Source: an uncultured Lachnospiraceae bacterium (lineage in GTDB: Bacteria > Bacillota > Clostridia > Lachnospirales > Lachnospiraceae). From it: a DNA stretch of 64,000 bases. The position numbers and the translations under genes were made by a program. Shown here in pieces: positions 2,580 through 52,869 of this stretch (positions within the stretch are counted from its first letter, which is position 1; the number at the start of each line of letters is the position of its first letter). The stretch is taken from contig CADAOY010000003.1 in assembly GCA_902789665.1 (NCBI GenBank), positions 270,482-334,481 on the forward strand, written 5' to 3'. Under the pieces are notes generated by a model. The model worked only from the letters and a program-made list of their open reading frames with translations. It did no database searches and was not told the origin of the DNA.

Positions 2580-2669
2580 CCACGCTAGGACAAAATGCTC
2601 TCACAAAAGCGATCCTGTGCTGCTTGCAGCAATGAGCTTTTGGGAGAGTAGTTTTGGACGACGCGTGGC
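2580..2669 (+). repeat. Structured intergenic repeat, copy 1
   Basis: One of four copies in this window. Nested pairing, outside to inside: CCACGC/GCGTGG (2580-2585/2663-2668), CAAAA/TTTTG (2591-2595/2652-2656), an internal loop TG opposite TAG, CTCTC/GAGAG (2598-2602/2644-2648), CAAAAGC/GCTTTTG (2604-2610/2636-2642), and an apical hairpin GCTG-CTTG-CAGC (2619-2630). GGAC flanks both sides of the core. It lies in the 3' untranslated region of trmB, antisense to it. Confidence 0.85.
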
Positions 2670-2698
2670 GCGTGGATGCTAATAAGCGTGGCGCGTAG

Positions 2699-3340
2699 TT
2701 ACCTGCTTATTATATACTTACAAATCGGATTCCCTATCGCTGAAAACTTCTCCTCATACTCAGTCATTACATTACCCACCATAAGTCTCTCATCCTTATG
2801 AAGGTCATATGTGCATTCATCCATATGCCACTTTGGGCTTTCCTTCACCTCATCCACTGCAAAATCAAAGAGCATTCTGTTATCTGTCTTAAATTCGATA
2901 ATTCCATCAGGTTTAAGAATCGCATCATATCTTTCCAGAAACTGCCTGGACTCAAGCCTTCTTTTGGCATGTCTGTCCTTCGGCCACGGATCTGAGAAAT
3001 TAAGATATATCCTGTCAACCTCACCCTCGCCGAAGACATCGCAGATTTCCTCTGCATCCATTCTTATGAATTTAAGATTAGGAAGATTAAGCTCTTCCTG
3101 CTTCTGGATGGCACGAAGAAGCACGCTGGAGTATTTTTCAATTCCGACATAATTGATATCAGGATTATTCTGCGCAAGAGTAATAATGAACTGTCCCTTA
3201 CCCATGCCTATTTCAATATAGACCGGATTGTCGTTTCCGAATATTTCATTCCATTTATCTTTATGTGCAGCATAATCATGGATTACATATTCGCTGTCTG
3301 CAATATATTCTTTTGAACCTGTTATATTTCTAAGTCTCAA
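2699..3340 (-). CDS. trmB: tRNA (guanine-N7-)-methyltransferase
   Basis: TrmB methylates G46 in the variable loop of tRNAs using S-adenosylmethionine. The 213 residues match the family length. Seen: the SAM-binding IEIGMGKGQF at about 42-51, and NFSDPWPKDRHAKRR (about 114-128), the TrmB signature that contacts tRNA. The start is a TTG at 3340: no in-frame ATG lies nearby and the sequence MRLRNITGS..YI is the normal family N-terminus. The ribosome site (AGGTAGGG, AAGG) is imperfectly spaced. It begins 11 nt after the stop of the broken carboxypeptidase gene, so the two are probably co-transcribed. Confidence 0.97.
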   Translation of the reverse strand: MRLRNITGSKEYIADSEYVIHDYAAHKDKWNEIFGNDNPVYIEIGMGKGQFIITLAQNNPDINYVGIEKYSSVLLRAIQKQEELNLPNLKFIRMDAEEICDVFGEGEVDRIYLNFSDPWPKDRHAKRRLESRQFLERYDAILKPDGIIEFKTDNRMLFDFAVDEVKESPKWHMDECTYDLHKDERLMVGNVMTEYEEKFSAIGNPICKYIISR

Positions 3341-3351
3341 ACCTTGGTTCC

Positions 3352-4846
3352 CTACCTGAGTTTTTTATCTTTTAACTGATATCCCTTATATTTGGATTTA
3401 TAGCGGCTTCTTTTTCTGCCAAACTTAAATCTTCTTCTCTTGCCCGAAGCTTTTTCAAAATTGAATTCCCTTAAAATACTGCAGGCTATAAATACTCCTG
3501 ACAAAACCACAACTACTACAACAGCACCGATAATTATCCACTTTATATTAAGGAAGACTGCGTTGTCATTGGTAGTAGGACCTCCCTCTATCTCCACAGG
3601 ATTTCCTTCCGTAAAAAGTTTTTCATTTCCTTCTCTTGCACCGCCTGCATCAGCTGAAAGCACCGTCGCAGTTCCAACTTCTGTTCCATTAAAGGTATAT
3701 TTAATGTCCGCAATACCACCTGTGGCATTGGAATTATAAACGATTTCTGACTGAAGTGCACTGAAATCTGCGGTTTTAGGAATAACCACATAATCATCAG
3801 GGTCTATCTGAAGAAATGGCTGATTATCTCCAAAAATATCCTGGCCCTCTGAGAAGAAATCCTTGTCAGATACCATAAATTCTGACTCATTCTCTGCCAC
3901 ATTAACTAACTGGAAATTCTCAAATCCATAGTCAAAAAGCGCCACCGTATCTTCAAACTGGTACGGAGATTCTTCCTTTAATATAACGCAGATTAAAGTC
4001 ATTCCGTCTCTTTCGGCAGCTGAAACCAGGGTCTGCCTTGAAATGGTAGTATAACCTGTCTTGCTTCCAAGAAGTCCCTCATATTCGCAGCGGCGTCCTT
4101 CAAGAAGCTGGTTCTTATTCTGTAGTGAGAAAGAATCCGGCTGAGTTGCTGTAGCTTCGAAAGTACAGGTTCCGGTTCTGGAAATTTTGGCCAGATAATC
4201 ATATGTATAGAATTCTCTTGCAATTAATGCAAGGTCATATGCGGTCATATGCACAGGTATAGTGATTATCATCATGAAGACCGCAGGCATTAACGAAATG
4301 AGTATTAACACAGCCGAGCTCTGCAGCCCTTTGATTCATAAGTTCAGCAAAAGAATCCTTATCTCCCGCAATATGCTCTCCAATTGCCATGGCAACTTCA
4401 TTGGCTGAAAGGATAAGCATGCCGTGAAGGGCATCATTCATGGTAATTGATTCTCCTTCATCCATACCGATGTTGGAAGAACCTCTTTCAATACCGAAAA
4501 CCGCTTCATGAGAGAAGGTTACCATCTCATCCAAATCACAGTTTTCTGCTGCCAGTAAACCTGTCATTACCTTGGTTACTGATGCAGGATATTCTTTTTT
4601 GGTAATTTCCTTGGCATATAATACAGTGCCTGTGCTGGCTTCCATCAGGATTGCCGCTTCCGCGCCAATCTTCGGTCCCTGCGGCCAGTCCTGAATCAGA
4701 TTGGACTGAACTTCATTATATTTACGATTCTCTGCTTCCTGCATATAATCCACATCTGCCTTCACTTTAAGACATGGCATAATTATAGCAAGAACCATTA
4801 CCAGCACAAGTATAATGCTGATATATCTTTTATTATATCTTATCAT
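3352..4846 (-). pseudogene. D-alanyl-D-alanine carboxypeptidase, frameshifted by a 10-bp tandem duplication
   Basis: A penicillin-binding-protein-type carboxypeptidase that trims peptidoglycan stem peptides is split into two reading frames. The first (from ATG 4846) has a signal/anchor segment (residues 7-30), the nucleophile motif SVTK (89-92) and SAN (147-149), then ends at 4235. The second frame continues with TAYDLALIAREF, the SKTGYT motif, a beta-rich domain, a transmembrane helix near the C-terminus and a very basic tail. At 4233-4252 GGTCATATGC occurs twice in tandem. Removing one copy restores a single 494-codon frame reading HYTCAYDLALIAREF. As it stands the product lacks the KTG motif and should be inactive. 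This is a recent mutation, a phase-variable state or an assembly error. Confidence 0.9.
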
Positions 4847-4864
4847 CTAAACCTCTAATCTCAC

Positions 4865-6001: not shown

Positions 6002-6100
6002 ATCATTTTCTCCCAATATCAGTTACACAAAACCCCTTAAGTAACACTCTAATAATATCAAAATATCCTTATAAGCACAACCTGTTACCACAGGTAAAAC

Positions 6101-6128
6101 AAAAGGCCCGGTATCACTACCGAGCCTT
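6101..6128 (-). terminator. Terminator of tRNA-Ser
   Basis: On the minus strand AAGGCTCGGTA and TACCGGGCCTT pair over 11 bp (one G-T wobble) around a GTGA loop, followed by TTGTTTT, starting 3 nt after the tRNA. Strong intrinsic terminator. Confidence 0.88.
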
Positions 6129-6130
6129 AG

Positions 6131-6218
6131 CGGAGAAAGAGGGATTTGAACCCTCGCGCCGGTTGCCCGACCTACACCCTTAGCAGGGGCGCCTCTTCGG
6201 CCTCTTGAGTATTTCTCC
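6131..6218 (-). tRNA. tRNA-Ser(GCU)
   Basis: An 88-nt class II tRNA with acceptor GGAGAAA/TTTCTCC, a 5-bp anticodon stem CGCCC/GGGTG around loop CTGCTAA (anticodon GCT, reading AGC/AGU), a long variable arm typical of serine tRNAs and a T arm with GGTTCAAATCC. The discriminator base is G. CCA is not encoded. Confidence 0.96.
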
Positions 6219-6263
6219 ATCCGAATTTATCTATATATTTACTTGAACCCAAACGCAATTAGC

Positions 6264-6293: not shown

Positions 6294-6308
6294 CTGATGG
6301 CGGTGGTT

Positions 6309-6728: not shown

Positions 6729-6729
6729 C

Positions 6730-22208: not shown

Positions 22209-23630
22209 TTATATCATCGGCTTAAGTACTGTAACAAGGCCAAGTATAATTGCAATAATATTAATTATTCTCTTTTGTTTTTTATTCTTTTCATCTTCAT
22301 CCGCATTGTAAAAACAAAGCAGATATCCGTTTAAAAGCGCAATTAAAATACATTCAATTATTGCTGTTCTGTGGAATGATACATATACTGTCGGGCTGAA
22401 ACCTGTAAGCATACGTGAGCAAAAAGCCGCACAAAGAAGTAAAATGGCAATGATTCTCTGAGTGTATAGTGGGCAGGTATTTTGCGTGGTTATAACCACA
22501 TTTTCTTCTTTACCTTTACTGAATACTCCCACTATTCCAACTATGGTGCAGGTAATATAGAAAAGATAAATGAGCACTTCTATAATTACATGAATCATTG
22601 GTACGTCGGACATTGATGGCAAATCCACGTTACTCATAAAGTAGGTTACGCCAAAACTTATATTAATATGGGCCATTGACAGTATCTTCTCGATGAGTGA
22701 GAGAGTCGGCAGCACCATTGGAAACAGGGATGCAATGATATATATATATTTCTTTTTCTTCGTTATATTAATATAAAGAATACTTAATGTCGTAAAGAAA
22801 AACAGGAAGTTGGTTTCTGTGCTCAGCATTGGAAATGTTACTGCCTGCAAAAAGCCCATTCCAAATTTTTCTATTAATGTTACATTCTCCCAGCCCGGAA
22901 AATTAAGACCTGCTTCTATCGCGGTTCTGTTAGCATTGCCGGGACAGGTAACAACCAGAAGAATTCCAAGTAAACTTAATATGAAGAATATATACCAGTG
23001 AACAGAAAGCGATGGTTTTTTCTTTTCTCTAATGCTTTTAATAACATCTACTAAGATAAATAATCCTGTAGCCACAAAATATATAACTGTTATCTGCTCA
23101 TTAAAAAGTGCAAAGATTAAGGAAAGATAAATAAATATATACTCATATGCTTTAACCTTTATTCCTCTTATATTTCTAAAGAGAAAGGAAGCTGCATATA
23201 TGCCTAAAGCTGCAGGCCAGAGATAATTAATGGTAGTTGCCATTTCGCCTGCAGAGCGCATCACCTCGGTGGGAATCATCATAACCACGGGAATGGCAAG
23301 AAGGGATATGAACTTATTATCCGAATTATTAATGATAATTCCGGTACTTACGCTAAGGAGAATAATCATGAGAATATCCGTAATGCGCCATACCATAATG
23401 GGAAGTCTTGCAATAATAACAAGCAATGCTTCAATTCCCTGTCTGGAGGTCCAGTTAAGATATCTGTAGGAAAGAAAAGAAAAAATATTCTCATCATCCA
23501 AAGCTTTGGAAAAGAAAACATCATCTCCGCTTAAAGTGCGAATACACATATGTATGATAAAATAGAGAATTATCATTAGCCCATAGCCCAGGGCATATTG
23601 AAGGATTATCTGTTTTTTGTTGTTTTTCAT
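22209..23630 (-). CDS. Polytopic membrane protein, DUF6056-like
   Basis: A 473-residue protein with about 11-12 transmembrane helices. The extracellular loop after helix 1 holds SGDDVFF and LNWTSRQG, the pattern of DUF6056 proteins, which resemble lipid-linked-sugar glycosyltransferases by topology; enzymatic activity is unproven. A cytoplasmic loop (EENVVITTQNT) is encoded by one copy of the GTGGTTATAACCAC palindrome (22486-22499). AAGGAAGAAAT precedes ATG 23630. Confidence 0.85.
   Translation of the reverse strand: MKNNKKQIILQYALGYGLMIILYFIIHMCIRTLSGDDVFFSKALDDENIFSFLSYRYLNWTSRQGIEALLVIIARLPIMVWRITDILMIILLSVSTGIIINNSDNKFISLLAIPVVMMIPTEVMRSAGEMATTINYLWPAALGIYAASFLFRNIRGIKVKAYEYIFIYLSLIFALFNEQITVIYFVATGLFILVDVIKSIREKKKPSLSVHWYIFFILSLLGILLVVTCPGNANRTAIEAGLNFPGWENVTLIEKFGMGFLQAVTFPMLSTETNFLFFFTTLSILYINITKKKKYIYIIASLFPMVLPTLSLIEKILSMAHINISFGVTYFMSNVDLPSMSDVPMIHVIIEVLIYLFYITCTIVGIVGVFSKGKEENVVITTQNTCPLYTQRIIAILLLCAAFCSRMLTGFSPTVYVSFHRTAIIECILIALLNGYLLCFYNADEDEKNKKQKRIINIIAIILGLVTVLKPMI
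22486..22499. repeat. GTGGTTATAACCAC palindrome inside a coding region
   Basis: A perfect 14-bp palindrome, one of five in the window, with the same flanks (ATG before, CG after on the minus strand). It is in frame and encodes part of a loop between membrane helices of the DUF6056-like protein. Confidence 0.8.
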
Positions 23631-23668
23631 ATTTCTTCCTTATCTTTTAATGTGTCCACCTTTTGAAC

Positions 23669-23757
23669 TCGCGCGACCTCCAAAACTACTCTCCCAAAAG
23701 CTCATTGAAGCAAGCTTCAGGGGTTCGCTTTTGGGAGAGCATTTTGTCCTGGCGCTC
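23669..23757 (-). repeat. Structured intergenic repeat, copy 2
   Basis: On the minus strand: GGAC, CAAAA/TTTTG (plus coordinates 23742-23746/23681-23685), internal loop TG/TAG, CTCTC/GAGAG (23735-23739/23689-23693), CCCAAAAGC/GCTTTTGGG extending the stem, and an apical GAAG-CTTG-CTTC hairpin (23707-23718). It lies between the esterase stop and the DUF6056 start, in the same sense as both. The outer GCGC flank pairs only partly. Confidence 0.85.
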
Positions 23758-23784
23758 GTGAGAAGTTTGAGTCTTTGCGCAGGT

Positions 23785-24624
23785 TTATAAGCTCTCAACA
23801 TAAGTCATAAACTTGTCTACTGTCTTGCTTTCGCTTCGGCTGTAAAGGAAACAGCCGGCTGTATACCAAGAGTGGGTATTCTTCTTATCTTCTACTTCAT
23901 ATAGTTCGCATTTAACCCCCAGCTTCGCTGCCATCTCGGCCATATCCTCAGCGCACTTAAATTCAAGAAGACCATCATGTCTGCTCTGGATTAAAAGCAT
24001 TGGAATATTACTTTCACACATAAGTGATACAGGCTCTGCTTCTTTTCTGTCATATCCCTTTTTAAATAACATATTAATAAGAAGCTTTATGGTAAGGCCT
24101 GCATCATCCCTGAAAGAATAAGGTCCACCGATACCTATATATCCGATAACATTGGAAATATCCACATTGTACTTTTCCTGGTCTTTTTTGCTATAACACA
24201 TAATAGATGACAGATGGGCGCCTGCTGACGGGCCTGAAACAATGACTTTCGATGTATCCACATTCTTTTCTTTAAGATATTTCATGGCCTCATTGTAGCA
24301 CTTACATACATCTTCTATCTGAGCCGGATATTTATATTTATTAGACAATCTGTAACCTACCGAGATAAAATGATATCCCATTCCTGCCACGCTCTGTCCC
24401 ATAAAATCAAAGAACTTCGGATCACCTGCATTCCATCCGCCACCATGAATCCAGACAATAACCTTATCGCTGACAGCTTCCTTAGGTCTGTAATAATAGA
24501 AATACTGATTCTTATCATCTCCAAAAGTAACCTTATCCGGAGTAATTGTCTTCTTCACCTTAAAAAGCATCCTGTAATACATCGGATAGTAACTTAAGTT
24601 TTCTCTAATATAATCAATCATCAT
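23785..24624 (-). CDS. Alpha/beta hydrolase, esterase/lipase type
   Basis: This 279-residue hydrolase has the oxyanion-hole motif HGGGW (about 60-64) and nucleophile elbow GPSAGAH (about 132-138) of hormone-sensitive-lipase-like carboxylesterases. A C-terminal THSWY supplies the likely catalytic His, and SRHDG the Asp. No signal peptide, so cytoplasmic. Substrate is probably a short-chain acyl or acetyl ester. It is followed by repeat copy 2. Confidence 0.9.
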   Translation of the reverse strand: MMIDYIRENLSYYPMYYRMLFKVKKTITPDKVTFGDDKNQYFYYYRPKEAVSDKVIVWIHGGGWNAGDPKFFDFMGQSVAGMGYHFISVGYRLSNKYKYPAQIEDVCKCYNEAMKYLKEKNVDTSKVIVSGPSAGAHLSSIMCYSKKDQEKYNVDISNVIGYIGIGGPYSFRDDAGLTIKLLINMLFKKGYDRKEAEPVSLMCESNIPMLLIQSRHDGLLEFKCAEDMAEMAAKLGVKCELYEVEDKKNTHSWYTAGCFLYSRSESKTVDKFMTYVESL

Positions 24625-24691
24625 TTCTACACTTCACCTCCCATCATCATAATCACTGATTTAGCCAGTTCCTTAAAACTTCATCATAACT

Positions 24692-29301: not shown

Positions 29302-29364
29302 TCTTAACCTTCTTTAACACATGTTATAAAGATTATACCATTATTACTATTATGTGACAATGTT

Positions 29365-29455
29365 GCGCAGCGCAAGGACAAAATGCTCTCCCCAAAGCCA
29401 TCTAAGTGCAGCTTGCTGCAATGAGCTTTGGGGAGAGTAGTTTTGGACGATGCGC
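29365..29455 (+). repeat. Structured intergenic repeat, copy 3
   Basis: GCGCA/TGCGC closing pairs (29365-29369/29451-29455), GGAC flanks, CAAAA/TTTTG (29379-29383/29441-29445), loop TG/TAG, CTCTC/GAGAG (29386-29390/29433-29437), CCCAAAGC/GCTTTGGG (29391-29398/29425-29432) and an apical GCAG-CTTG-CTGC hairpin (29408-29419). It lies between the LysR stop and the sortase start, antisense to both. Helix sequence differs from copies 1 and 2 but pairing is kept. Confidence 0.88.
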
Positions 29456-29462
29456 GTCCTAC

Positions 29463-30365
29463 TTAGAACGGCTTATACTTCTTAAGTTCCTCAATAAAGC
29501 TAAGTGCCATAGGACTTAAAATATGATCATCTCTTATAATATATCCGATGGTCATTTTATCCTCAGCATCAAGTGGAACCGCTGTATATCCCACACCATT
29601 TAATTCCTTACAGATAACACCGCTGCAAAGGGTAAAACCATTAAGAAGTGTCATCATATTAAGAGCAGTCGCCCTGTCATTTACACGAATAATCTTTCTG
29701 TACGGATAAGTGCTGAGCACCTCTTCCGCAAAATAAAATGAATTCTTCTCACCCTGATTAAAGGAAAGACAAGGATACTCATCAAGGTCCTTTAATGACA
29801 CCTTTTTCTTCTTTGCAAGCGGATGGTTCGTTGAAAGATATGCATAGGTATCGCAGGTAAAAAGCTCATTAAAGTTAAGATTATTTTCTGCCAGTTCCTT
29901 ATATAAAACCTTATTGTTAAAGTCATTGATGTAAAGTATTCCAAGCTCGCTTCTCATATTTTTTACATCAGTAATAACCTCGCCTGTTCTGGTTTCATAT
30001 ATGGCAAAATCATACTCTTCCATGGAATTATTTAATACCACGTTTGAAAAAGCCTCCACCGCAAAAGTATAATGCTGGGCAGACACATGGAAAACCTTCT
30101 TGGCAGAAGATGTGCCCAGGTATCTTTGTTCCATAAACTTATACTGCTCCAAAGTCTGCCTTGCATAACCAATGAACTCACTGCCTTCGGTAGTAAGCTC
30201 TATACCCTTGTTGCTCCTGTTAAAAATCTTAATTCCGATTTCTTTTTCAAGTTCTTTAATGGTTCCGGACAAACTTGGCTGCGATATATAAAGAGCCTTT
30301 GCGGCCTCATTCATTGATCCCCTGTCCGCAACACATATAACATATTTCATCTGTTGTAATGTCAT
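29463..30365 (-). CDS. LysR-family transcriptional regulator
   Basis: A 300-residue LTTR: an N-terminal winged helix-turn-helix (MTLQQMKYVICVADRGSMNEAAKAL ... SQPSLSGTIKELEKEIG in family order) and a periplasmic-binding-protein-like effector domain (about 90-295). It closes the antiporter-symporter-DUF2142 operon with a 14-nt gap from the gene upstream, so it may regulate that operon, unlike the usual divergent arrangement. Effector unknown. Confidence 0.93.
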   Translation of the reverse strand: MTLQQMKYVICVADRGSMNEAAKALYISQPSLSGTIKELEKEIGIKIFNRSNKGIELTTEGSEFIGYARQTLEQYKFMEQRYLGTSSAKKVFHVSAQHYTFAVEAFSNVVLNNSMEEYDFAIYETRTGEVITDVKNMRSELGILYINDFNNKVLYKELAENNLNFNELFTCDTYAYLSTNHPLAKKKKVSLKDLDEYPCLSFNQGEKNSFYFAEEVLSTYPYRKIIRVNDRATALNMMTLLNGFTLCSGVICKELNGVGYTAVPLDAEDKMTIGYIIRDDHILSPMALSFIEELKKYKPF

Positions 30366-42711: not shown

Positions 42712-44094
42712 TTAATATATAGAAGAAATTTTATTCTTAATAACTTCTATTTCATTTCTAAAATTCTCGTCTTTTTCAACTTTTTCCTTAATCTTATTGG
42801 ATCCGGAAATAACAGTTGAATGATCTTTTCTGTCTAATAGTTTTGCTATATTCTGCTGTGTTTCTCCAGTCATGGTTGAACAGAGATAGTAAATAATCTG
42901 TCTTGGAAATACTACTTCTGATCTTCTGCTGGATGATAAAAGCTCTGAAATATCAATATTATAATGTTCAGCTACTGCATTCATAATCTTCTGAGGAGTT
43001 ATAGGTCTCTTCTTATTAAAAGATATATATTCTTTAATAGCTTCATTAACATGTTCTATTGTAATATCCTTAATTCCATATATTCTTGCATACTGAATAA
43101 CATTCTTATATGCACCTTCAAGTGATCTGATATCAGTATCTACATTAGTAGATATATAGGAAAGAACTTCATCATTAAAGATATTATTATGCTGACCATT
43201 TAATTTTTGTAAAATGGCATATCTTGTTTCATATGAAGGTGGCTGAATATCAGCAATTAAGCCCATGGAGAATCTTGAAATATATCTTTCATCAAAATCC
43301 TCGAATTCCTTTGGTGGCTTATCAGATGAAATAACAATGGCTTTATTGTTATTACATAAGTATTCAAATGTATAGAAGAATTCTTCCATTGAAGATTTCT
43401 TATCTTTAATAAACTGGATATCATCAAATAGCAAAATATCCACCGAGAGATATTTCTTCCTGAAAGCATCTATAATATTCTGCTTACCACCACTAATGGC
43501 AGGAATAAGTTCATTAAGGAAAGATTTACAATTCACATAAAGAACATTCTTGGTATTATCTTTCTCTAATATATAATGACCAATTGAATGAAGCAGATGT
43601 GTCTTACCAAGTCCTGAATTACCATATATAAATAAAGGATTAAATTCAATTCCCGGAGCATTGGCTACAGCAACTGATGCCTCAAGGGCAAAAGAGTTAT
43701 TATCTCCTCTTACAAAATTATCAAATGTAAATTTAGGATTAAGATTAGATTTCTCAATAAGATTAAAATCAAGTTTTGTAGTATTAGTCTTCTGAGTTAC
43801 ATCTTCTTCTTCAGATTTAAATATTACATTATAGGAAATACCATCATTAATGAATTCCGTTACTGTAACTGTGAAAAAGTCTGTATAACTCTTGGTAATG
43901 AAACTAATAATACTCTTCTTATTAGGAATAATAATGTAAACTGTATTTTCACTGATGGAATCCAGTTTCATATTATCTATGAAAGTATCATATGCTACAT
44001 TGGAAATATCGTATGTATCTTTTACTGTTTTCTTAATTTTATCCCAGTTATCATTAAGAAGATAAAATTTCTCAATTTCAGTCATCAATTTCAA
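42712..44094 (-). CDS. dnaA: Chromosomal replication initiator DnaA
   Basis: DnaA binds DnaA boxes and melts the origin. The 460-residue protein has domain I (1 to about 95), AAA+ domain III with Walker A GNSGLGKTH (about 156-164) and Walker B ILLFDDIQFI (about 217-226), and domain IV with the DnaA signature RKDHSTVISGSNKI (about 425-438). The frame opens at TTG 44094, 4 nt after AGGAG; ATG 44085 is the alternative but is 13 nt from it. Divergent from rpmH across the main origin region. Confidence 0.98.
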   Translation of the reverse strand: MKLMTEIEKFYLLNDNWDKIKKTVKDTYDISNVAYDTFIDNMKLDSISENTVYIIIPNKKSIISFITKSYTDFFTVTVTEFINDGISYNVIFKSEEEDVTQKTNTTKLDFNLIEKSNLNPKFTFDNFVRGDNNSFALEASVAVANAPGIEFNPLFIYGNSGLGKTHLLHSIGHYILEKDNTKNVLYVNCKSFLNELIPAISGGKQNIIDAFRKKYLSVDILLFDDIQFIKDKKSSMEEFFYTFEYLCNNNKAIVISSDKPPKEFEDFDERYISRFSMGLIADIQPPSYETRYAILQKLNGQHNNIFNDEVLSYISTNVDTDIRSLEGAYKNVIQYARIYGIKDITIEHVNEAIKEYISFNKKRPITPQKIMNAVAEHYNIDISELLSSSRRSEVVFPRQIIYYLCSTMTGETQQNIAKLLDRKDHSTVISGSNKIKEKVEKDENFRNEIEVIKNKISSIY

Positions 44095-44131
44095 ATTGCT
44101 CCTAATTTTAACAACAATTAACTCCTTATAT

Positions 44132-44160
44132 ATAATACCTTAAAATGTTAAAAATTTCAA
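44132..44160 (-). promoter_or_regulatory. dnaA promoter
   Basis: On the minus strand TTGAAA (44155-44160), 17-nt spacer, TATTAT (44132-44137), ending about 38 nt before the dnaA start. Nearby DnaA boxes (44253-44338) would allow autoregulation. Confidence 0.65.
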
Positions 44161-44433
44161 ACTTTAACTTTAATAATTATGTAAACTAAAATGGTAAAAA
44201 TAAAATATTTATAAACAATTTTAACCCAGTTATATAAACCTTTATTTAAAAGTTATACACAAAAAAAGATGGTAAAATAGGGATTTTTATTAATTATAAC
44301 CATTATTTATCAACAAGTTATTCACATTTTGGGGATAACATTATGTAAAACTATTATGAGAAACCTGGTATTATAAAAAAATTATAAATCCTTTATTTTA
44401 GGCATTTTTATTGATAATATTATTAATTTTTAG
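44161..44433. other. Main oriC region: DnaA boxes and AT-rich unwinding stretch
   Basis: Between dnaA and rpmH. DnaA-box-like sites: TTATACACA (44253-44261), TTATCAACA (44307-44315), TTATTCACA (44318-44326) and TGGGGATAA (44330-44338, complement TTATCCCCA), each one mismatch from TTATCCACA. The last three are packed within 32 bp. The adjoining 44340-44433 is almost pure A/T with runs of T and A, a plausible DNA-unwinding element. Assignment rests on gene context, box clustering and strand switch of genes. Confidence 0.85.
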
Positions 44434-44462
44434 TTGACGTAAAAAAATATTTCATTTATAAT
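44434..44462 (+). promoter_or_regulatory. rpmH promoter
   Basis: TTGACG (44434-44439), a 17-nt spacer and a perfect TATAAT (44457-44462), 39 nt before the rpmH start. It would drive rpmH-rnpA-yidD-yidC-jag. Confidence 0.85.
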
Positions 44463-44501
44463 CGATTTGTGTTTCCACACGAGAAAAGGAGGTGCCTATC
44501 T

Positions 44502-44636
44502 ATGAAAATGACATTTCAGCCTAAGAAAAGACAGAGAGCAAAAGTTCATGGTTTCAGATCAAGAATGAGCAGTGCCGGCGGAAGAAAAGTTCTTGCAGCA
44601 AGAAGAGCTAAAGGAAGAAAGAAATTATCAGCATAG
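44502..44636 (+). CDS. rpmH: 50S ribosomal protein L34
   Basis: A 44-residue, very basic protein beginning [18 protein letters not shown] and containing [11 protein letters not shown] and [13 protein letters not shown], the universal L34 pattern. AAAAGGAGGTGCCTATCT precedes the ATG. Its position next to rnpA and facing away from dnaA is conserved across bacteria. Confidence 0.99.
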
Positions 44637-44660
44637 GCCGCATTTATTGTGGTCTTTTTT
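44636..44660 (+). terminator. Attenuating terminator between rpmH and rnpA
   Basis: GGCCGCA (44636-44642) and TGTGGTC (44648-44654) pair over 7 bp with two wobbles, followed immediately by TTTTTT. It lies right after the L34 stop and would lower rnpA expression relative to rpmH. Confidence 0.7.
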
Positions 44661-44677
44661 CTTCTTATAAGAAAAAT

Positions 44678-45040
44678 ATGTTAAAAACAGTTTCATTAAA
44701 GAATAATACTGATTTTAAAAGAGTTTATAATTCAGGCAAGTCACAGGGAAATAAATATTTAGTAATGTACGTTGTGGAAAACGGACTTGGAATTAACAGA
44801 CTTGGAATATCAGTAAGCAAAAAAGTAGGTAACAGTGTAATCAGACACAGAGTTAAACGTCTGGTTAAAGAAACTTACAGACTACATGAAGATTTGTTTA
44901 ATAGTGGTTTAGACATAGTAGTTATAGGCAGAATGTCTGCAGCAACTGCAGATTACGGGCATATTGAGAATGCTCTTATCCGTCTATCTAATCTTCATCA
45001 TATTATTAATAATGAAAAAAATATTAATAGGATCGATTAA
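44678..45040 (+). CDS. rnpA: Ribonuclease P protein component
   Basis: RnpA assists the RNase P ribozyme in cutting tRNA 5' leaders. The 120-residue protein has the family signature [21 protein letters not shown] in order (about 47-67). A weak ribosome site precedes ATG 44678 (AAGAAAAAT). The end overlaps yidD by 29 nt. Confidence 0.97.
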
Positions 45041-45221
45041 AACATATCAAAAATATATATCTCCATATAAGTCGACCAAATGTCCTTATTTTCCATCATG
45101 TTCATGTTATGGATTGCAGGCTGTTGAAAAGCACGGGGCAATAAAAGGGTCGGCTTTAACTGCGTGGAGAATACTTCGTTGTAATCCTTTTTCTAAAGGC
45201 GGATATGATCCGGTTCCCTAA
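45012..45221 (+). CDS. yidD: Membrane protein insertion efficiency factor YidD
   Basis: A 69-residue protein with [20 protein letters not shown] and [16 protein letters not shown], the YidD (Haemolytic) family signature with three conserved Cys. I start it at ATG 45012 because [18 protein letters not shown] is the family N-terminus; the frame extends upstream to 44964 inside rnpA. It overlaps rnpA by 29 nt and aids YidC-dependent membrane insertion. Confidence 0.95.
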
Positions 45222-45251
45222 CGATTCTGTTTTTATTTAGGAGGAAAGTTA

Positions 45252-46715
45252 GTGTTTTATTGTTTATTAACTCAGAATTCTTCCTTTATTATTGGACCGG
45301 TTTCCAAATTGCTTGGTCTTATAATGCAGGGAATCTTCTGGGTACAGAATTTTGTAATAAATCTATTTGGTAAAGAAGGTGTATGGTATCCAAATATAGG
45401 TTTATCAATAATTATTTTTACAATTATTATTTACCTTTTATTATTACCTCTTACCATTAAACAGCAGAAATTCTCCAAGTTTTCTGCAATTATGAATCCT
45501 GAAATCAAGAAAATTCAGGATAAATACAAAGGCAAAACTGATAATGAATCAATGACAAAGATGCAGCAGGAAACATCAGCTGTATATGCCAAGTATGGAG
45601 TATCTCCTACAGGCAGCTGTCTTCAGCTTCTTATTCAGATGCCAATTCTTTTAGCACTTTACAGAGTAATTTATGCCATACCGGCCTATGTTAAGGAAGT
45701 TAAAACTGCTTTCTTTCCATTAGTAAATAATCTTATTGTTCAAAGTGACAGTAATACTTTTATTAAGGAATTACAGGCTGCGGCTTATTTTAAAAAACAG
45801 TTTAAGGGCGAGGTTTTTGAAGCTGAGGCTTTTGCCAAAGTTCAGGATACTGTATCTGCAGCACTTGCTACTTCAGCTAATCCAACATTTACAGATACTG
45901 ATGTAATTACAGTTCAGAATGCATTTATTGATGTACTTAACAGATGTAGTACAAAGGAATGGGCTTCAATTGCTGACAAGTTTTCTGCTTTAGGACCGGA
46001 TATTGCAAGTACAATTGAAAGACTTGATAAATATAATGTATTTTTAGGTCTTAACATGGGTTATTCACCAAGTAACCTCATTCTTAATGAACTTGGTGTT
46101 GATCATATCTTTAAGCAGTTTGGTTCAATTAACTGGTCCGGTGCTAACTGGTGGATTATTATTGGTGCAGTAATGATTCCTGTGCTGGCGGCTTTTACCC
46201 AGTGGCTTAATGTTAAATTAAGTCCTCAGGCTAATACCAATACAGAGCCTGGTCAGGAAGAAAATCCAATGATGCAGTCCATGAAGATGATGAATGTTAC
46301 AATGCCGCTTATGTCTGCAGTATTTTGTTTGACACTTCCATCAGGTATGGGTGTTTACTGGATTGCCGGTGCTGTTGTAAGAACAATTCAGCAGATCATT
46401 ATAAATAAGTATATTGATAAAATGGATATTGATGCAGTAATTGCCAAGAATGTTGAAAAATATAATAAAAAGCTTGAAAAGGGCGGAACTTTAACTCAGA
46501 ATATTGCCAAGCTTGCCAATACAAATACTGCAAATATCAATAATAGCAGTAATACAAAGCCAAGCTCAAATTTAAGCAAAGAAGAAAGAGAAGCTCAGAT
46601 TAAAAAAGCAACAGAGTACCTTAATAAGTCTAATAATAAAAAGTCAGGTACGGGGGGAAGTTTAGCTTCCAAGGCTAACTTAGTTAAAGACTATAATGAG
46701 AGGAATAATAAATAA
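45252..46715 (+). CDS. yidC: Membrane protein insertase YidC/OxaA
   Basis: YidC inserts and folds membrane proteins with or without SecYEG. The 487-residue Gram-positive-type protein has five membrane helices, with the cytoplasmic charged hairpin QQKFSKFSAIMNPEIKKIQ after helix 1. Notable features: a GTG start (45252; AGGAGGAAAGTTA upstream), no lipobox at the N-terminus, and an extended external segment of about 120 residues (about 160-280) between helices. The tail is Asn/Lys-rich. The stop shares a base with jag's ATG. Confidence 0.96.
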   Translation: MFYCLLTQNSSFIIGPVSKLLGLIMQGIFWVQNFVINLFGKEGVWYPNIGLSIIIFTIIIYLLLLPLTIKQQKFSKFSAIMNPEIKKIQDKYKGKTDNESMTKMQQETSAVYAKYGVSPTGSCLQLLIQMPILLALYRVIYAIPAYVKEVKTAFFPLVNNLIVQSDSNTFIKELQAAAYFKKQFKGEVFEAEAFAKVQDTVSAALATSANPTFTDTDVITVQNAFIDVLNRCSTKEWASIADKFSALGPDIASTIERLDKYNVFLGLNMGYSPSNLILNELGVDHIFKQFGSINWSGANWWIIIGAVMIPVLAAFTQWLNVKLSPQANTNTEPGQEENPMMQSMKMMNVTMPLMSAVFCLTLPSGMGVYWIAGAVVRTIQQIIINKYIDKMDIDAVIAKNVEKYNKKLEKGGTLTQNIAKLANTNTANINNSSNTKPSSNLSKEEREAQIKKATEYLNKSNNKKSGTGGSLASKANLVKDYNERNNK

Positions 46716-47500
46716 TGGATGCAAATTTAGAATATAAAGAGTTTACCGGAAAAACTAAAGATGATGCAATTACCAATGCTTGCCAGAGTTTTCTTGTAGC
46801 CAGTGATTGCCTTGATTATGTAGTTATTGATGAAGGTTCATCAGGATTTCTTGGTTTTAATTCCAAGCCGGTAGTTATTAAAGCAAGAGTTAAGTCTGAT
46901 GAAGAAATTGCCAGGGCTAAAGAAGAAGCTGCAAAGAAGGCTGCTGAAGAAGAGGCGGTTAAAGATGCAGCAAAAAAAGCTAAAGAGCAGGCAAGCAAAA
47001 TCGTTGAAAATGTTACCGGCGCTGCATCAGAGAAGAAAGCTTCAGATGTTGATATTGAAGAAGTTGCAGTTAAGTTTCTTAAAGAAGTACTTAAGGCAAT
47101 GGATGTTGAAGCTGAAATTAAGACTGAATTAAATGATGAAGAATTAAATGTTGAATTAAGTGGTAATGATACTTCTTATATTATTGGTAAGAGAGGTCAG
47201 ACACTTGATTCCCTTCAGTATCTTATTTCTCTTGTAATTAACAAATATACAGATAAGTATGTAAGAGTTAAAGTTGATACAGAGAATTACAGAGAAAGAA
47301 GAAAACAGACTCTTGAAAATCTTGCAAGAAATATTGCAAAGAATGTTAAGAGAACAAGAAGAGCTACTACTTTAGAGCCTATGAATCCATATGAAAGAAG
47401 AATTATTCATTCAGCACTTCAGGGTGATAAGTATGTAGAGACACATTCTGAGGGTGAAGAGCCATATAGAAAAGTTGTTATTTCTCCAAAGAGAGGATAA
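46715..47500 (+). CDS. jag: RNA-binding protein Jag/KhpB
   Basis: A 261-residue protein with a Jag-N domain (1-55, EFTGKTKDDAITNAC ... GFLGFNSKP), an Ala/Lys/Glu-rich helical linker (about 65-110), a KH domain (about 120-180, GKRGQTLDSLQYL) and a C-terminal R3H domain (about 200-261, EPMNPYERRIIHSAL, RRKV-like end). KhpB with KhpA is a global RNA chaperone in Gram-positives. Co-translated with yidC through a 1-nt stop/start overlap. Confidence 0.96.
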   Translation: MDANLEYKEFTGKTKDDAITNACQSFLVASDCLDYVVIDEGSSGFLGFNSKPVVIKARVKSDEEIARAKEEAAKKAAEEEAVKDAAKKAKEQASKIVENVTGAASEKKASDVDIEEVAVKFLKEVLKAMDVEAEIKTELNDEELNVELSGNDTSYIIGKRGQTLDSLQYLISLVINKYTDKYVRVKVDTENYRERRKQTLENLARNIAKNVKRTRRATTLEPMNPYERRIIHSALQGDKYVETHSEGEEPYRKVVISPKRG

Positions 47501-47540
47501 ATTAAAGTGGCAACCTCCTAAGGTTTGTATATGATATAAT

Positions 47541-47568
47541 AAAGCTGTCTTTATAGGCAGCTTTTATT
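47541..47568 (+). terminator. Terminator of the rpmH-jag transcript
   Basis: AAAGCTGTC (47541-47549) and GGCAGCTTT (47556-47564) pair over 9 bp (one wobble) with a 6-nt loop, then TATT. It ends 20 nt before mnmE, so mnmE either depends on readthrough or has a promoter I cannot place. Confidence 0.7.
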
Positions 47569-47587
47569 AAAATATTTGGGAATTAAT

Positions 47588-48982
47588 ATGGATACTTACA
47601 GATTAGATGACTGCATATGTGCAATTAGTTCGGGACTTGCTCCATCCGGTATAGGTATAGTAAGGATGTCAGGCGAAGGATGTATTGATATTGCAGACAA
47701 AATAATTAAATTGAAAAATGGTAAACTGGCTGATAAGGAAAGTCATACCATTCACTATGGCCATATATATGATGGTGAAAAAATGGTGGATGAGATTATG
47801 GTTATTCTTATGAGAGCACCACATACCTATACCAAAGAAGATGTTGTTGAGATTAACTGTCATGGTGGTCCTTATATCATGAATAAAATCTTATATCTTC
47901 TTGCAGGTAATGGTGCAAGAATAGCTGACAGAGGCGAATTTACCAAAAGAGCTTTCTTAAATGGAAGAATAGATTTAAGTAAAGCTGAAGCAGTTATGGA
48001 TTTAATTGCATCTGAAAGTGAATATGCTGCTTCTAATTCAATATCGCAGATTGAAGGAAGTTTATATAAGGAAATTGTAAGTATTCGTGAAGACCTGCTT
48101 TATAATATTGCATATATTGAAGCAGGACTTGATGATCCGGAACATATTGATTTGGATGAATATCAGGAAACCCTGGTTTCAAAAATAAAAGAAATTATTT
48201 CCAGAGTTGATAAATTAATATCTTCTTATGATAATGGTAAAATAATTAAAGAAGGAATTACCACAGGTATCATAGGTAAGCCTAATGTTGGTAAGTCTTC
48301 ACTTCTTAATTATCTGGTGGGACATGAAAGAGCAATTGTTACTGATGTTGCAGGTACTACAAGAGATACAGTTGAAGAAACAGTTAATCTGGATGGAATT
48401 TTGCTTAAGCTTATTGATACAGCCGGAATCAGGGAATCATCAGATGTTGTTGAGGCAATTGGTATAAATAAAGCTAAAGAGATATATGAAAACGCGGACC
48501 TGATTTTGCTCCTTCTGGATAATTCTGTTGGAATTACTGAAGATGATAAGAAACTTCTTGGATTAATCAATAATAAGAAGGCCGTTATACTTATCAACAA
48601 AACTGATGTGGATAACAAAATAGAAGAGTCTGAAATAAAGAGTTTTCTTGAAGATGACAATAATGTTCATATTGTGGAAATCTCTGTTAAGAATAATATT
48701 GGTGTAGATAAAATCAGTAATATTATAAAAGAGATGTATTACAATGATGAAATAAAGTATAATGATGAAGTATGCATAAGTAATGTAAGACATAAGACTT
48801 TACTTGATGAAGCGAAGGCTCATCTTGAAGATGTTGTAAATGCAGTTTTGACTGATGTTCCTGAAGATATTTATTCAGTGGACATGTATATTTCTTATGC
48901 TAAACTTGGTGAGATAATTGGAATGGATACAGGAGAAGATGTGGTTAATGAGATTTTCTCCAAATTCTGTATGGGTAAGTAG
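47588..48982 (+). CDS. mnmE: tRNA uridine-5-carboxymethylaminomethyl modification GTPase
   Basis: MnmE with MnmG modifies U34 of tRNAs reading NNA/NNG codons. The 464 residues show an N-terminal folate domain, an inserted G domain with GKPNVGKSS (G1, about 226-234), DTAG (G3), NKTD (G4), and the C-terminal CMGK (usual C[IVL]GK) with catalytic Cys. I choose ATG 47588 over TTG 47576; MDTYRLDDCICAISS fits the family. Followed directly by mnmG with no gap. Confidence 0.97.
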   Translation: MDTYRLDDCICAISSGLAPSGIGIVRMSGEGCIDIADKIIKLKNGKLADKESHTIHYGHIYDGEKMVDEIMVILMRAPHTYTKEDVVEINCHGGPYIMNKILYLLAGNGARIADRGEFTKRAFLNGRIDLSKAEAVMDLIASESEYAASNSISQIEGSLYKEIVSIREDLLYNIAYIEAGLDDPEHIDLDEYQETLVSKIKEIISRVDKLISSYDNGKIIKEGITTGIIGKPNVGKSSLLNYLVGHERAIVTDVAGTTRDTVEETVNLDGILLKLIDTAGIRESSDVVEAIGINKAKEIYENADLILLLLDNSVGITEDDKKLLGLINNKKAVILINKTDVDNKIEESEIKSFLEDDNNVHIVEISVKNNIGVDKISNIIKEMYYNDEIKYNDEVCISNVRHKTLLDEAKAHLEDVVNAVLTDVPEDIYSVDMYISYAKLGEIIGMDTGEDVVNEIFSKFCMGK

Positions 48983-50869
48983 ATGAATAACAGTATTATT
49001 GAAACAGATATATGTGTAATAGGTGCAGGTCATGCCGGATGTGAAGCGGCACTTGCTGCAGCAAGACTTGGGTTTAAGGTTACTATTTTTACAGTGAGTG
49101 TTGAGAGTATTGCGATGATGCCTTGTAATCCTAATATTGGAGGAACTTCCAAGGGACATCTGGTTCGAGAACTTGATGCACTTGGTGGTGAGATGGGTGT
49201 CAATATTGATAAATCTTTTATTCAGTCAAAGATGCTCAATGCTTCCAAAGGTCCTGCAGTTCATTCTTTAAGAGCTCAGGCTGATAAGTCTGTTTATACT
49301 CTTAATATGAGAAAAGTTTTGGAGAATACTGAAGGCATTACCATTAAGCAGGGTGAAGTCTGTGAAATATTAACTGAAGAAGTTAATGGTATTAATACTG
49401 TTTGCGGTGTAAAAATTTATACTGGAACAATATATAAATGTAAGGCTGCAATTATCTGCAGCGGAACTTATCTTAATTCAAGATGTTTATGTGGAGAGAG
49501 TATTACATATACCGGACCAAACGGACTTCAGAGTGCAACACATCTTGGCGAGTCCCTTACCAAATTAGGTATTGGACTTAGAAGATTCAAAACAGGAACT
49601 CCTGCAAGAATGGATAAAAGAAGCCTTGATTTTTCAAAAATGGAAATCCAGTATGGTGATGAGAGAGTAGTTCCATTTTCTTTTACAACAGATCCTGAAT
49701 CAGTTCAGATAGATCAGGTTCCTGTTTATATGACTTATACCAATGAGGAAACTCATAAGATAATTAGAGCAAACCTTGACCGTTCACCTATCTATGCAGG
49801 TATCATTGAAGGAACCGGTCCAAGATACTGTCCTTCAATTGAAGACAAGGTTGTTAAGTTTGCAGATAAGGAAAGACATCAGGTATTTATTGAACCTGAA
49901 GGATTATATACTAATGAAATGTATGTTGGCGGTATGTCATCTTCCATGCCTGAAGATGTTCAGATTGCAATGTATCATACAGTACCGGGACTTGAGAATG
50001 CAGTCATAGTTCGTAATGCATATGCAATTGAGTATGATTGTTTATGTCCTGGAGAATTAACTTTGTCACTTGAACTTAAAAAGGTTAGCGGATTATTCTC
50101 TGCCGGACAGTTTAATGGAAGTTCAGGTTATGAAGAAGCTGCAGCCCAGGGCTTGATAGCCGGAATTAATGCAGCAAGAAAATTATCAGATTTGGAACCT
50201 GTTATTCTTACAAGGTCAGATGCATATATTGGTGTTTTAATTGATGACCTTGTTACTCTTGAAAATAATGAGCCATACAGAATGATGACATCAAGAGCAG
50301 AATACAGACTTATGCTTCGTCAGGACAATGCCGATCTTCGCCTTACCAAAATAGGTCATGACATTGGTCTTATCTCTGATGAAAGATATGAAAAGTTTGA
50401 ACTTAAGAAACAGATGATAGAAGATGAGATAGACAGACTTAAAAATACTTTTGTTGGTGCCAATGCAAAAGTTCAGGAATTTCTTAAGTCAATGAACTCA
50501 TCTCCACTTAAGACTGCTTTTTCTTTAGCAGACCTTATGTGTCGTCAGGAACTTGATTATGAATTAATAGCTCCAATTGATCCGGATAGAAAACCACTTC
50601 CTTCGGATGTTAAGGAACAGGTTTATATTCAGATTAAGTATGAAGGATATATTGATAAACAGCTTCAGCAGATTAATCATTTTAAAAAATTAGAAAATAA
50701 GAAATTATCTTCTGATATTGATTATAATGAAATCTCATCATTAAGACTTGAAGCAAGACAGAAATTAAATAAATTTAAACCTGAGAATATCGGACAGGCA
50801 TCACGTATCAGTGGAGTTACTCCTGCAGATATTTCTGTCTTACTTGTTTATCTGACACAGAAAAAGTAA
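48983..50869 (+). CDS. mnmG: tRNA uridine-5-carboxymethylaminomethyl modification enzyme, FAD subunit
   Basis: MnmG (GidA) is the FAD partner of MnmE. The 628-residue protein has the dinucleotide site [19 protein letters not shown] (about 11-29), the signature [16 protein letters not shown] (about 49-64), and [21 protein letters not shown] (about 369-389). ATG follows the mnmE stop codon directly, so expression is coupled. Confidence 0.98.
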
Positions 50870-50881
50870 AAATATAATTTC

Positions 50882-50931
50882 GTGGTTTTAACCACATTTT
50901 ATAAGTATATGAATTTCGTGGTTATAACCAC
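50882..50931. repeat. Tandem pair of GTGGTTWTAACCAC palindromes upstream of rsmG
   Basis: GTGGTTTTAACCAC (50882-50895) and GTGGTTATAACCAC (50918-50931), 36 bp apart, same orientation, with shared flanks (TTTC before, ATWW after). They fill most of the 74-bp mnmG-rsmG gap, 13 bp before the rsmG ATG. A regulatory or mobile role is inference. Confidence 0.8.
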
Positions 50932-50943
50932 ATAATTTAAACT

Positions 50944-51681
50944 ATGGATAAATCATTTATTAAAACAAGTATGTCACAATTAAATATTACATTAAGTGAT
51001 GAACAGATTGATATGTTTAATACATATTATGAATTACTGGTAGACTGGAATAGCCGAATGAATCTTACAGCTATTACAGAATATGAAGATGTAATTATCA
51101 AACATTTCGTTGACAGTTTATCTATAGTTAAATATCTTGATTTAATTAATGTATCATCTGATAAATATGATACTTACTCTCCAACTATAATTGATATTGG
51201 AACCGGTGCAGGATTCCCTGGTATACCAATCAAAATTTTATTACCTTCTTCCAAGGTAGTATTAGTTGACTCCCTAAATAAGAGAATAAATTTTCTTAAT
51301 GAAGTAATTAAGGTTTTAGATCTTAAAGATATAACTGCGATACATTCAAGAGCCGAGGATTTTGGACATGGTGTTTATCGTGAAAAAGGCGACTATGTTG
51401 TTTCACGTGCAGTTGCAAATATATCTACCTTATCAGAGTACTGTCTTCCATTAGTTAAAACTGGTGGAGTATTCATGTCATATAAATCAGAAAAATTAGA
51501 TGAAGAATTATCCATGTATCCTAATGCCATAAATACATTAGGTGGAAAAATTAAAAATAATATATCATTTACTATTGGTGAAGATATTAGCAGAAATTTA
51601 CTTGTTGTTGAAAAGGTTAATTCTACCAAAGGAAAATATCCGCGCAAAAGTGGATTGCCTTCCAAGGAACCTTTACATTAA
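50944..51681 (+). CDS. rsmG: 16S rRNA (guanine527-N7)-methyltransferase
   Basis: RsmG (GidB) methylates G527 of 16S rRNA. The 245 residues contain LVDWNSRMNLTAITEYEDVI (about 31-50) and the SAM site IDIGTGAGFPGIPIKI (about 83-98), then LVDSLNKRINFL. The mnmE-mnmG-rsmG order is conserved near origins. A ribosome site is poor (TTTAAACT before ATG), and the tandem palindromes lie just upstream. Confidence 0.97.
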   Translation: MDKSFIKTSMSQLNITLSDEQIDMFNTYYELLVDWNSRMNLTAITEYEDVIIKHFVDSLSIVKYLDLINVSSDKYDTYSPTIIDIGTGAGFPGIPIKILLPSSKVVLVDSLNKRINFLNEVIKVLDLKDITAIHSRAEDFGHGVYREKGDYVVSRAVANISTLSEYCLPLVKTGGVFMSYKSEKLDEELSMYPNAINTLGGKIKNNISFTIGEDISRNLLVVEKVNSTKGKYPRKSGLPSKEPLH

Positions 51682-51692
51682 GGGGGTATAAT

Positions 51693-52352
51693 ATGTTACT
51701 TGATGAGAAGTTAAAATTAACTGACCTTTCCATGACTCTTCATTCTTATCTTGATGATTGCAGGCAGAAAAGAAATGAGTATGCCAATGAACTTGCAGAG
51801 AATGAAGAATTACTTAAACAAAAGAAGGAAACTTACTCCTCAGATAAAGAGAAGAAATCACGTGCAGTATTCTCTCCAAGAGATCAGCAGTCATTTGATC
51901 TTCAGGGAGAAGAAGAAAGTATTAAATTACTTACTGTTAAATGTGATAATCTTAAAGATGTTATTAAGAAGATTGACAGAAGAATATTCTCTTTTGAAAA
52001 TGGAGTGAATGCCCTTGATGATTTACTTCTCCAGGATACTGAAGCAAAAAAAGCAGAAGAGAGAAAATCTGATTCCCGTCCGAAGGATGCACTTGATTTA
52101 TTCCTTGAAGGTTCTATCTCCAGAGAAGAAGCTGAAGGTAAAACTGTAGATTCTACATCAGATGATAATAAAGAAGAATCTTCTCTCAATGTTTCTGTAC
52201 CATCTGATCTTAGTATTGAAGATAAGAAAAAGATTGCTCATATATCTAATGGACTTAAGCAGACAATTGACTATATAACTTTTGATCCACTGAGAGCTAA
52301 AACTGAAATCACTAAATATAGTGATGATCTTGATACTATTTCTAAACACTAA
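51693..52352 (+). CDS. Unknown coiled-coil protein between rsmG and the parS region
   Basis: A 219-residue, soluble, highly charged protein. Residues about 15-110 are predicted by eye to form long helices of Glu/Lys/Asp/Leu heptads; about 115-190 is Asp/Ser/Glu-rich and probably disordered; the end is helical. No catalytic motif or signal peptide. Some likeness to the coiled-coil sensing region of DegS-type kinases is too weak to rely on. AGGGGGTATAAT precedes ATG 51693, 11 nt after rsmG, so it is co-transcribed with it. Confidence 0.85.
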   Translation: MLLDEKLKLTDLSMTLHSYLDDCRQKRNEYANELAENEELLKQKKETYSSDKEKKSRAVFSPRDQQSFDLQGEEESIKLLTVKCDNLKDVIKKIDRRIFSFENGVNALDDLLLQDTEAKKAEERKSDSRPKDALDLFLEGSISREEAEGKTVDSTSDDNKEESSLNVSVPSDLSIEDKKKIAHISNGLKQTIDYITFDPLRAKTEITKYSDDLDTISKH

Positions 52353-52372
52353 ATATAGTTTACTTTTCAAAA

Positions 52373-52470
52373 TGTTTCACATGAAACATATGTCAGGTTG
52401 AAATTCGACCACAAGATATATGTTCCACGTGAAACATTTTTGTCTAGATTTTGATTTTCCACGTGAAACA
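52373..52470. promoter_or_regulatory. parS cluster
   Basis: TGTTCCACGTGAAACA (52421-52436) is an exact match to the B. subtilis-type centromere site TGTTNCACGTGAAACA bound by ParB/Spo0J. Flanking copies: TGTTTCACATGAAACA (52373-52388) and TTTTCCACGTGAAACA (52455-52470), each with one mismatch. Three sites within 98 bp directly upstream of parA-parB form a complete ParABS locus. Confidence 0.95.
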
Positions 52471-52588
52471 CTTTTCCGATTTTTAACTTCAACTCGCTAA
52501 AAGTTCCACAATTTGAACAAGATATTGTGGTGGATTGGGGATGGGGTAAATTATTATATTTTACTAGATGTAGTATTTGGTAAAATGA

Positions 52589-52869
52589 CGCTCCCGGTCG
52601 GTGCTATTATTCTTTTTTGGACACGCTCTCGCTCGTTGCTCCCCGCAGCGGTACTAAGCTCGCTGAAAGACGCTCGCAAGTACCGGCGTTCCACACGGTC
52701 CGAAAACGAACAACAGCACCTCCCTCGCGCTTACTCTTTGACAAGTACAGGCCAAGGACTGAAAATGCTCTGCCGGCAATCCTTTCCGATTAGGGCGCTA
52801 GCCCAATCGAGGTTGACGGGAGAGTAGTTTTCAGGACGCGGCCGTCCTGGATAGCACCGACCGGGAGCG
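52589..52869 (+). ncRNA. 281-nt GC-rich structured element with repeat copy 4
   Basis: A perfect 19-bp inverted repeat, CGCTCCCGGTCGGTGCTAT (52589-52607) and its complement (52851-52869), closes the element. Inside: GGAC/GTCC (52619-52622/52698-52701) with T/A extensions, CGGTACT/AGTACCG (52649-52655/52679-52685), and the fourth copy of the repeat core (52756-52837): CTGAAAA/TTTTCAG, loop TG/TAG, CTCT/AGAG, capped by GATT-A-GGGC-GCTA-GCCC-AATC. It is GC-rich against flanks of about 25% GC. An RNA gene and a short terminal-inverted-repeat mobile element are both possible; no target duplication is visible. The rest of the 713-bp gap (52353-53065) holds parS sites and AT-rich DNA; I see no protein gene in it. 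Confidence 0.6.

Follow-up and report, generated by a model that had tools for sequence, protein, structure and literature searches.

The 64,000-nt stretch of DNA analyzed here (the window) comes from an uncultured Lachnospiraceae bacterium and carries four copies of a structured hairpin, which we interpret, with a probability of roughly 60%, as members of a family of small non-autonomous mobile elements that behave like repetitive extragenic palindromic (REP) sequences or miniature inverted-repeat transposable elements (MITEs). Copies of the hairpin are dispersed, occupy sites that are polymorphic between two sister species, lie inside or beside one another, and keep a compensated fold around a fixed core. 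Among the options offered by the initial annotation of the window, it is the mobilized REP-like unit that the dispersed copies and the filled and empty sites support.

Anatomy, spread and covariation of the hairpin

The pattern TGCTCT-N20-50-AGAGTAG has four matches in the window against an expected mean of 0.07, a number reached in none of 100 shuffles, and the four copies first proposed all lie where they had been placed (Table 1). Copies 1-3 are nearly identical hairpins of ~90 nt, and copy 4 has the basal core alone in common with them. From the outside inward, the hairpin consists of an outer stem of variable sequence, an internal loop NAGGA / GACG(A/C)N, a stem C-AAAA-TG-CTCT / AGAG-TA-TTTT-G from which a single G bulges, an upper stem that again varies, a further loop with GA facing TGA, and, at the apex, a stem with a CTTG cap in 35 of 39 copies, so that the tetraloop described as constant is frequent without being universal. 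Judging from the bases, the two GGAC segments could join through two G-C pairs that enclose tandem G-A mismatches. The two-nucleotide spacer that the initial annotation had drawn next to GGAC corresponds in copy 4 to an extra TG...CA, which pairs, but in copies 1-3 GGAC abuts AAAA directly, and copy 2 ends in GGAG rather than in the GGAC ascribed to it. The loop of TG opposite TAG is indeed invariant but is better resolved into a T-A pair, a G-T/G-U wobble and a single bulged G; the wobble is present in all 38 distinct rows of the alignment described below, and the bulged position is G in 38 of 39 copies. Copy 1 is far more stable than its own shuffles, folding at -45.6 kcal/mol as RNA (z -6.0) and at -25.2 kcal/mol as DNA (z -5.0). 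A role as terminator was rejected, as no terminator-like site was found at copies 1-3.

The family is considerably larger than the four copies of the original count. A covariance model built from 21 copies yielded 40 hits in the genome from which the window was taken (2.25 Mb; the source genome). Of these, 22 scored above 70 bits, one was copy 4 (25 bits) and the other 17 were antisense shadows of the same copies, so that this genome holds 23 copies: 22 strong ones and copy 4. A genome-wide pattern search returned 23 matches, of which 21 were strong copies, one was copy 4 and one, lacking the fold, was due to chance. Among 31 genomes of the genus, two were positive, the source genome and its sister species Lachnospiraceae bacterium UBA4338 (DGTK01; G300), which has 18 strong copies and an orthologue of copy 4; the covariance-model search found no element in the other 29. 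The suggested search for further copies was therefore productive at home and in one relative. None of the 22 strong copies lies on the 625-kb contig C4 (Poisson 0.002, for a contig chosen post hoc), and G300 copies exist in the orthologous regions.

To quantify covariation, we used an alignment (A6) of 39 strong copies, 22 from the source genome and 17 from G300, which leaves out the second copy in L084 as well as copy 4 and contains 38 distinct rows. Paired cells amounted to 97.2% versus 87.7% in shuffles, two-sided changes affected 13 of 28 pairs versus a shuffled mean of 8.0, and the covariation score was 0.232 versus 0.077, values to be read in the light of an alignment fitted to the model, which favors structure, and of kinship among copies, which inflates scores. 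Four of five covariation measures were reached in none of 500 shuffles and the fifth, the number of further pair types, in two of 500, and every measure collapsed when pairing partners were slid by 1-3 columns. The compensatory changes are also plain in the sequences themselves, where CAAAA/TTTTG is replaced by GAAAA/TTTTC, CAAAG/CTTTG, CAAAT/ATTTG or CTTAAAA/TTTTAAG. These results bear out the earlier proposal of a selected fold with covariation around an invariant core, as well as that of a partly pairing outer flank, since most copies pair there despite differing sequence (90.8% of cells in helix 1).

Three subtypes can be told apart. Besides the A-type hairpins of copies 1-3, B-type copies have a GCTTAAAA/TTTTAAGC base and a GCTGCC/GGCAGC outer stem, and C-type copies a CAAAAA/TTTTTG base and a CCCC/GGGG outer stem. 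By inspection, C-type hairpins are nested inside B-type hairpins (L103, L107) and an A-like one inside a C-type hairpin (L097), while L101:17683 looks, from its sequence, like an A/C chimera. An exact search for the 3' motif AGAGTAGTTTT gave 23 matches, 21 inside full elements and two in apparent coding sequence; lone half-elements were thus not found by this search, which diverged halves would escape. Locus L092 carries an additional 5' half-element.

Outside the genus, no match was obtained in 50,697 phage and 72,556 plasmid records, and all 35 viral stretches with the pattern were without a model match, which led us to reject a phage or plasmid origin. An exact-pattern scan of named genomes returned at least 106 stretches; 97 of those listed were not from UBA4338 and all 97 were scored, 73 giving nothing. 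Of the remaining 24, L213 (Adlercreutzia) was, among the matches listed, the sole stretch with hits, two weak AT-rich ones of 19 and 17 bits that we took as chance. A scan of 299 sampled family genomes, in a large-set mode that scores few candidates per genome and may miss weak members, gave weak matches (27-36 bits) in three genomes beyond the source genome (G124, G245 and G019). G124 has two copies in one intergenic region (L059:1500-1730) with the GCGATC...ATGAGC module and CTTG loop of the family and otherwise different stems. In G245, from another Lachnospiraceae genus, intergenic elements (L060:1485-1625, L062:1480-1620) differ in sequence and fold alike: GTGGTC/GACCAC forms the outer stem, and side hairpins accompany a long hairpin capped by CTTG; this looks like an analogous cloverleaf-like element. 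The G019 match (L061) seems to be a different kind of hairpin, long and perfect. The CTTG-capped, deeply nested hairpins of the weak relatives G124 and G245 raise the idea that the family might be part of a broader group of folded mobile units within the Lachnospiraceae.

Scans against Rfam release 15 at the gathering score gave no element match, with two tRNAs only in the window and none in four loci with B- or C-type copies, and permissive scans left copy 4 without any hit and gave copy 1 sub-threshold ones only, in agreement with the earlier remark that no named family fits. A literature search, with subscription journals mostly outside its reach, found no description of the family.

Filled and empty sites in two sister species

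We compared the stretches around the copies with the orthologous places in both genomes, using junctions defined by BLAST. At nine sites, one species cleanly carries the element where the other lacks it: G300 has it at six sites that are empty in the source genome (L081, L087, L092, L091, L086 and L094), and the source genome at three that are empty in G300 (L108:10138, L103 and L104 (pair of opposite copies)). By these junctions, the inserts measure 111-208 bp, with overlaps of 1, 7, 12, 1, 1 and 6 nt and gaps at three sites. From the absence of the element in the other genomes of the genus, we infer that the copies are insertions rather than precise losses.

Three further sites were left out of this set, copy 3 for an unclean junction, copy 2 for a larger indel and L083 for other repeats in its place. 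Copy 3 is absent from G300. Copy 2 falls within a 1,005-bp stretch (window positions 23664-24668) that also holds an alpha/beta-hydrolase gene (279 aa) and is missing from G300, which aligns on both sides. At L083, G300 has the element and the source genome a TTGGGTGGGGTCCCGGGGC-like repeat array (L251:9915-10146, G000:C2). For six copies of the source genome and one of G300, no orthologous stretch was found.

In six of the nine cases (L092, L094, L103, L104, L087 and L081), the junction is 0-2 nt away from a stop codon; the L081 insert also splits a T-run behind a hairpin, and the L108 insert enters the last codons of a gene. This bias may reflect selection, since no other places in tight operons are harmless. 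A similar setting is seen across the family when context is counted over 40 copies (22 from the source genome, 17 of the 18 from G300, all but the one in L080, plus copy 4): a gene 3' end flanks at least one side of 39, with genes assigned as the longest open reading frame of at least 70 aa, a frame that in six of the 40 cases also overlapped the element.

Eleven copies, copy 4 included, occupy positions common to both species. Three of these positions differ in subtype or arrangement (L096/L095, L108:11287/L090:11348 and L097/L093), with core differences of 23-32%, which might be explained by re-insertion at the same spot, by replacement or by loss from a composite. In the eight shared copies of the same type, the core has 13/611 substitutions versus 239/4008 in the 250-nt flanks (P = 2e-5), a comparison in which the flanks include coding DNA and two adjacent copies have common flanks; the trend is opposite in two of the eight (L098 and L108:8703). 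The core of copy 1 shows 0/76 substitutions relative to its orthologous G300 site.

Movement of the element and competing readings

In the mechanism that we favor, the fold would act as a single strand, most likely of DNA exposed during replication or repair. A trans-acting enzyme would recognize the basal core (the AGGA/GACG loop, the C-AAAA stem, the bulged G and CTCT/AGAG) and would move the hairpin, together with variable flanking DNA, to tolerated sites. Such recognition of the core would require of the outer and upper stems only that they pair, leaving them free to drift or to be replaced as blocks. Taken in its most specific form, the proposal would be of a mobile element recognized by its fold, with a fixed core, any complementary stems, and neither terminal repeats nor a constant duplication, moved by some such enzyme; we regard this full description as doubtful.

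The source genome has a single match to Y1 (HUH) transposases, a 246-aa gene at G000:C3:75935. Its single-copy locus (L028:1-3336, G000:C3:74435-77770) is flanked by repeats of its own, of the kind GTGCCACTAGGGACGGGGGAATGTGCATC, and model R1 finds no element there. Y1 genes occur in 17 of the 31 genus genomes, 15 of which are without the element. We therefore rejected a REP-associated tyrosine transposase (RAYT) as partner, on account of both the other repeats flanking the gene and the mismatched distribution; no sign emerged of the RAYT connection raised at the outset. A full palindrome of the GTGCCACTAGGGACGGGGGAATGTGCATC kind adjoins an element copy in L100.

Several observations weigh against a mobile element. 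No mobiliser was found in a search that covered the Y1 class. The first and last bases of the nine inserts reveal by inspection no common motif and no terminal inverted repeat, nor is there a constant target-site duplication at these sites, unlike in most transposons, although short duplications could be blurred between species ~5% diverged. The empty sites are only presumed to be ancestral. A lagging-strand bias, as expected of elements that move as single-stranded DNA, is not significant, with 28 of 40 copies on the C-rich strand and 20 of 31 (P = 0.15) once orthologues were collapsed by hand using shared-position pairs. Three further points would also suit a structured RNA: as RNA, the model strand gives a better fold than its complement in 38 of the 40 copies, the G-U/G-T pair is fixed, and the greater conservation of the core at resident copies may mean function there and not mobility alone.

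On this alternative, the model strand would be transcribed and its hairpin, with CUUG loop, G-U pair and tandem GA, would bind a protein or protect RNA ends, the family having spread as DNA and been kept for the RNA. Covariation, the invariant loops and the prevalence of the CTTG cap also fit this. Nevertheless, copies occur in both orientations relative to genes (13 antisense and 8 sense among the 21 between co-directional genes, after the same collapsing; P = 0.38), and among the helix cells left unpaired on the model strand, A-C combinations (14) are no rarer than G-T ones (8), even if some of the former come from rows poorly accommodated by the common alignment. These two results speak against the RNA motif of the initial annotation as one acting in cis. 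Given also that copies 1-3 contain no internal promoter and that Rfam gave no match at the gathering score, we consider a structured RNA unlikely.

The block-wise change of the arms (apical TGCTG/CAGCA, TGAAG/CTTCA and TACAG/CTGTA), as well as the small AT-rich duplications possible at sites with overlaps of 6, 7 and 12 nt, would also be compatible with a duplex MITE, in which a DDE-type transposase binds double-stranded ends and template switching (quasi-palindrome correction), not selection on the fold, keeps the arms complementary. Such correction would be expected to remove the bulged G, the wobble and the loops, but all remain fixed, and the insert ends lack a common terminal repeat, making this account less probable still. 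Least credible is RNA-mediated mobility, whereby a transcript is reverse transcribed and then inserted; the RNA-like fold, the variable insert ends and insertion beside terminators and stop codons would agree with it, but the inserts have no conserved 3' end or tail.

Set beside known repeats, the hairpin family behaves like REPs and MITEs. GTAG REPs are described as hairpins dispersed downstream of genes, in dimers or clusters, and patchy between close species (PMC3733652, PMC6006769, PMC2817692); the present family is likewise dispersed and patchy between close species, lies near the 3' ends of genes and forms pairs and nests. The same sources give GTAG REPs a size of 20-40 bp, an unpaired 5' GT[AG]G at the hairpin foot and a cognate RAYT (PMC3733652, PMC6006769, PMC2817692), whereas here GTAG occurs only within the 3' side of the stem, the unit spans ~90-200 bp and, unlike in a REPtron, the Y1 gene is flanked not by the element but by other repeats. 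For REPs tagged with CGTC or its variants TGTC/CCTC, no dedicated transposase is reported to be known (PMC3733652). The complementary strand of our family has CGTC in 28/39 and CCTC in 3/39 copies preceding the hairpin, in the modeled loop, a four-letter match only that may be coincidence. The family does not meet the further description of CGTC REPs in that text, 8-9 bp stems starting with A-T pairs, loops of 4-5 bases, a CCA tail and a size of 20-40 bp (PMC3733652). ERIC, YPAL, EFAR and other stem-loop repeats are described as in some cases intergenic, structured and 100-200 bp long (PMC2267715, PMC3733652), and our intergenic, structured inserts of 111-208 bp are similar. Unlike MITE-like palindromes, the family has no terminal inverted repeat at its insert ends and no constant target duplication, and shows compensatory stems around an invariant asymmetric core. 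Based on these descriptions of known families, we place it in the broad class of small, non-autonomous, palindromic mobile elements, as a new form within that class.

Covariation and insertion polymorphism thus come together in about forty copies with a fixed core and nine filled or empty sites in one species pair. With both signals in one family, one can test whether such hairpin repeats persist because an enzyme recognizes their fold and moves them or because they act as RNA, and a recently mobile family with a tag similar to that of CGTC-type REPs could help to find their transposase.

Copy 4 and the replication-origin region

Table 1. Hairpin copies and neighboring features, in window positions
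Feature	Position	Strand	Remarks
Copy 1, A-type hairpin	2576..2671	+	Outer stem 2579-2585/2663-2669
Copy 1, GGAC	2588-2591 and 2656-2659	+	
Copy 1, AAAATGCTCT	2592-2601	+	
Copy 1, AGAGTAGTTTT	2645-2655	+	
Copy 1, bulged G	2651	+	
Copy 2, A-type hairpin	23666..23765	-	Upstream of gene 22209-23630 (-)
Copy 3, A-type hairpin	29360..29456	+	Between 3' end of LysR-type gene 29463-30365 (-) and promoter-like site for gene 28123-29301 (-)
dnaA	42712-44094	-	Pfam
parS-like sites	52421-52436 and 52455-52470		Presumed from match to parS consensus
Large structure	52576..52882	+	Copy 4 as one arm; closing inverted repeat 52576-52607 / 52851-52882
Copy 4, basal core with different upper part	52740..52844	+	25 bits to model R1
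parA	53066-53830	+	Pfam
parB	53842-54708	+	Pfam

The part of the window from 42712 to 54708 spans the replication-origin region, and copy 4 is located there between what we take to be parS-like sites and parA. It forms one arm of a 307-nt structure that is closed by a 32-nt inverted repeat (88% complementary), folds at -132 kcal/mol (z -6.9) and is 92.7% identical in G300, where the orthologue of copy 4 is L078. Among the 25 genus genomes in which parA was matched, the structure occurs in the source genome and G300 only; scoring of the other 23 parA loci did not reveal it, three loci having short flanks. An old genus-wide parA structure was rejected on these grounds. The structure may instead be a composite insertion with the family core in one arm, and a function of its own is possible. 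In several genus members (L305, L309, L316 and L323), a separate open frame lies between the parS-like sites and parA, in place of the copy-4 structure.

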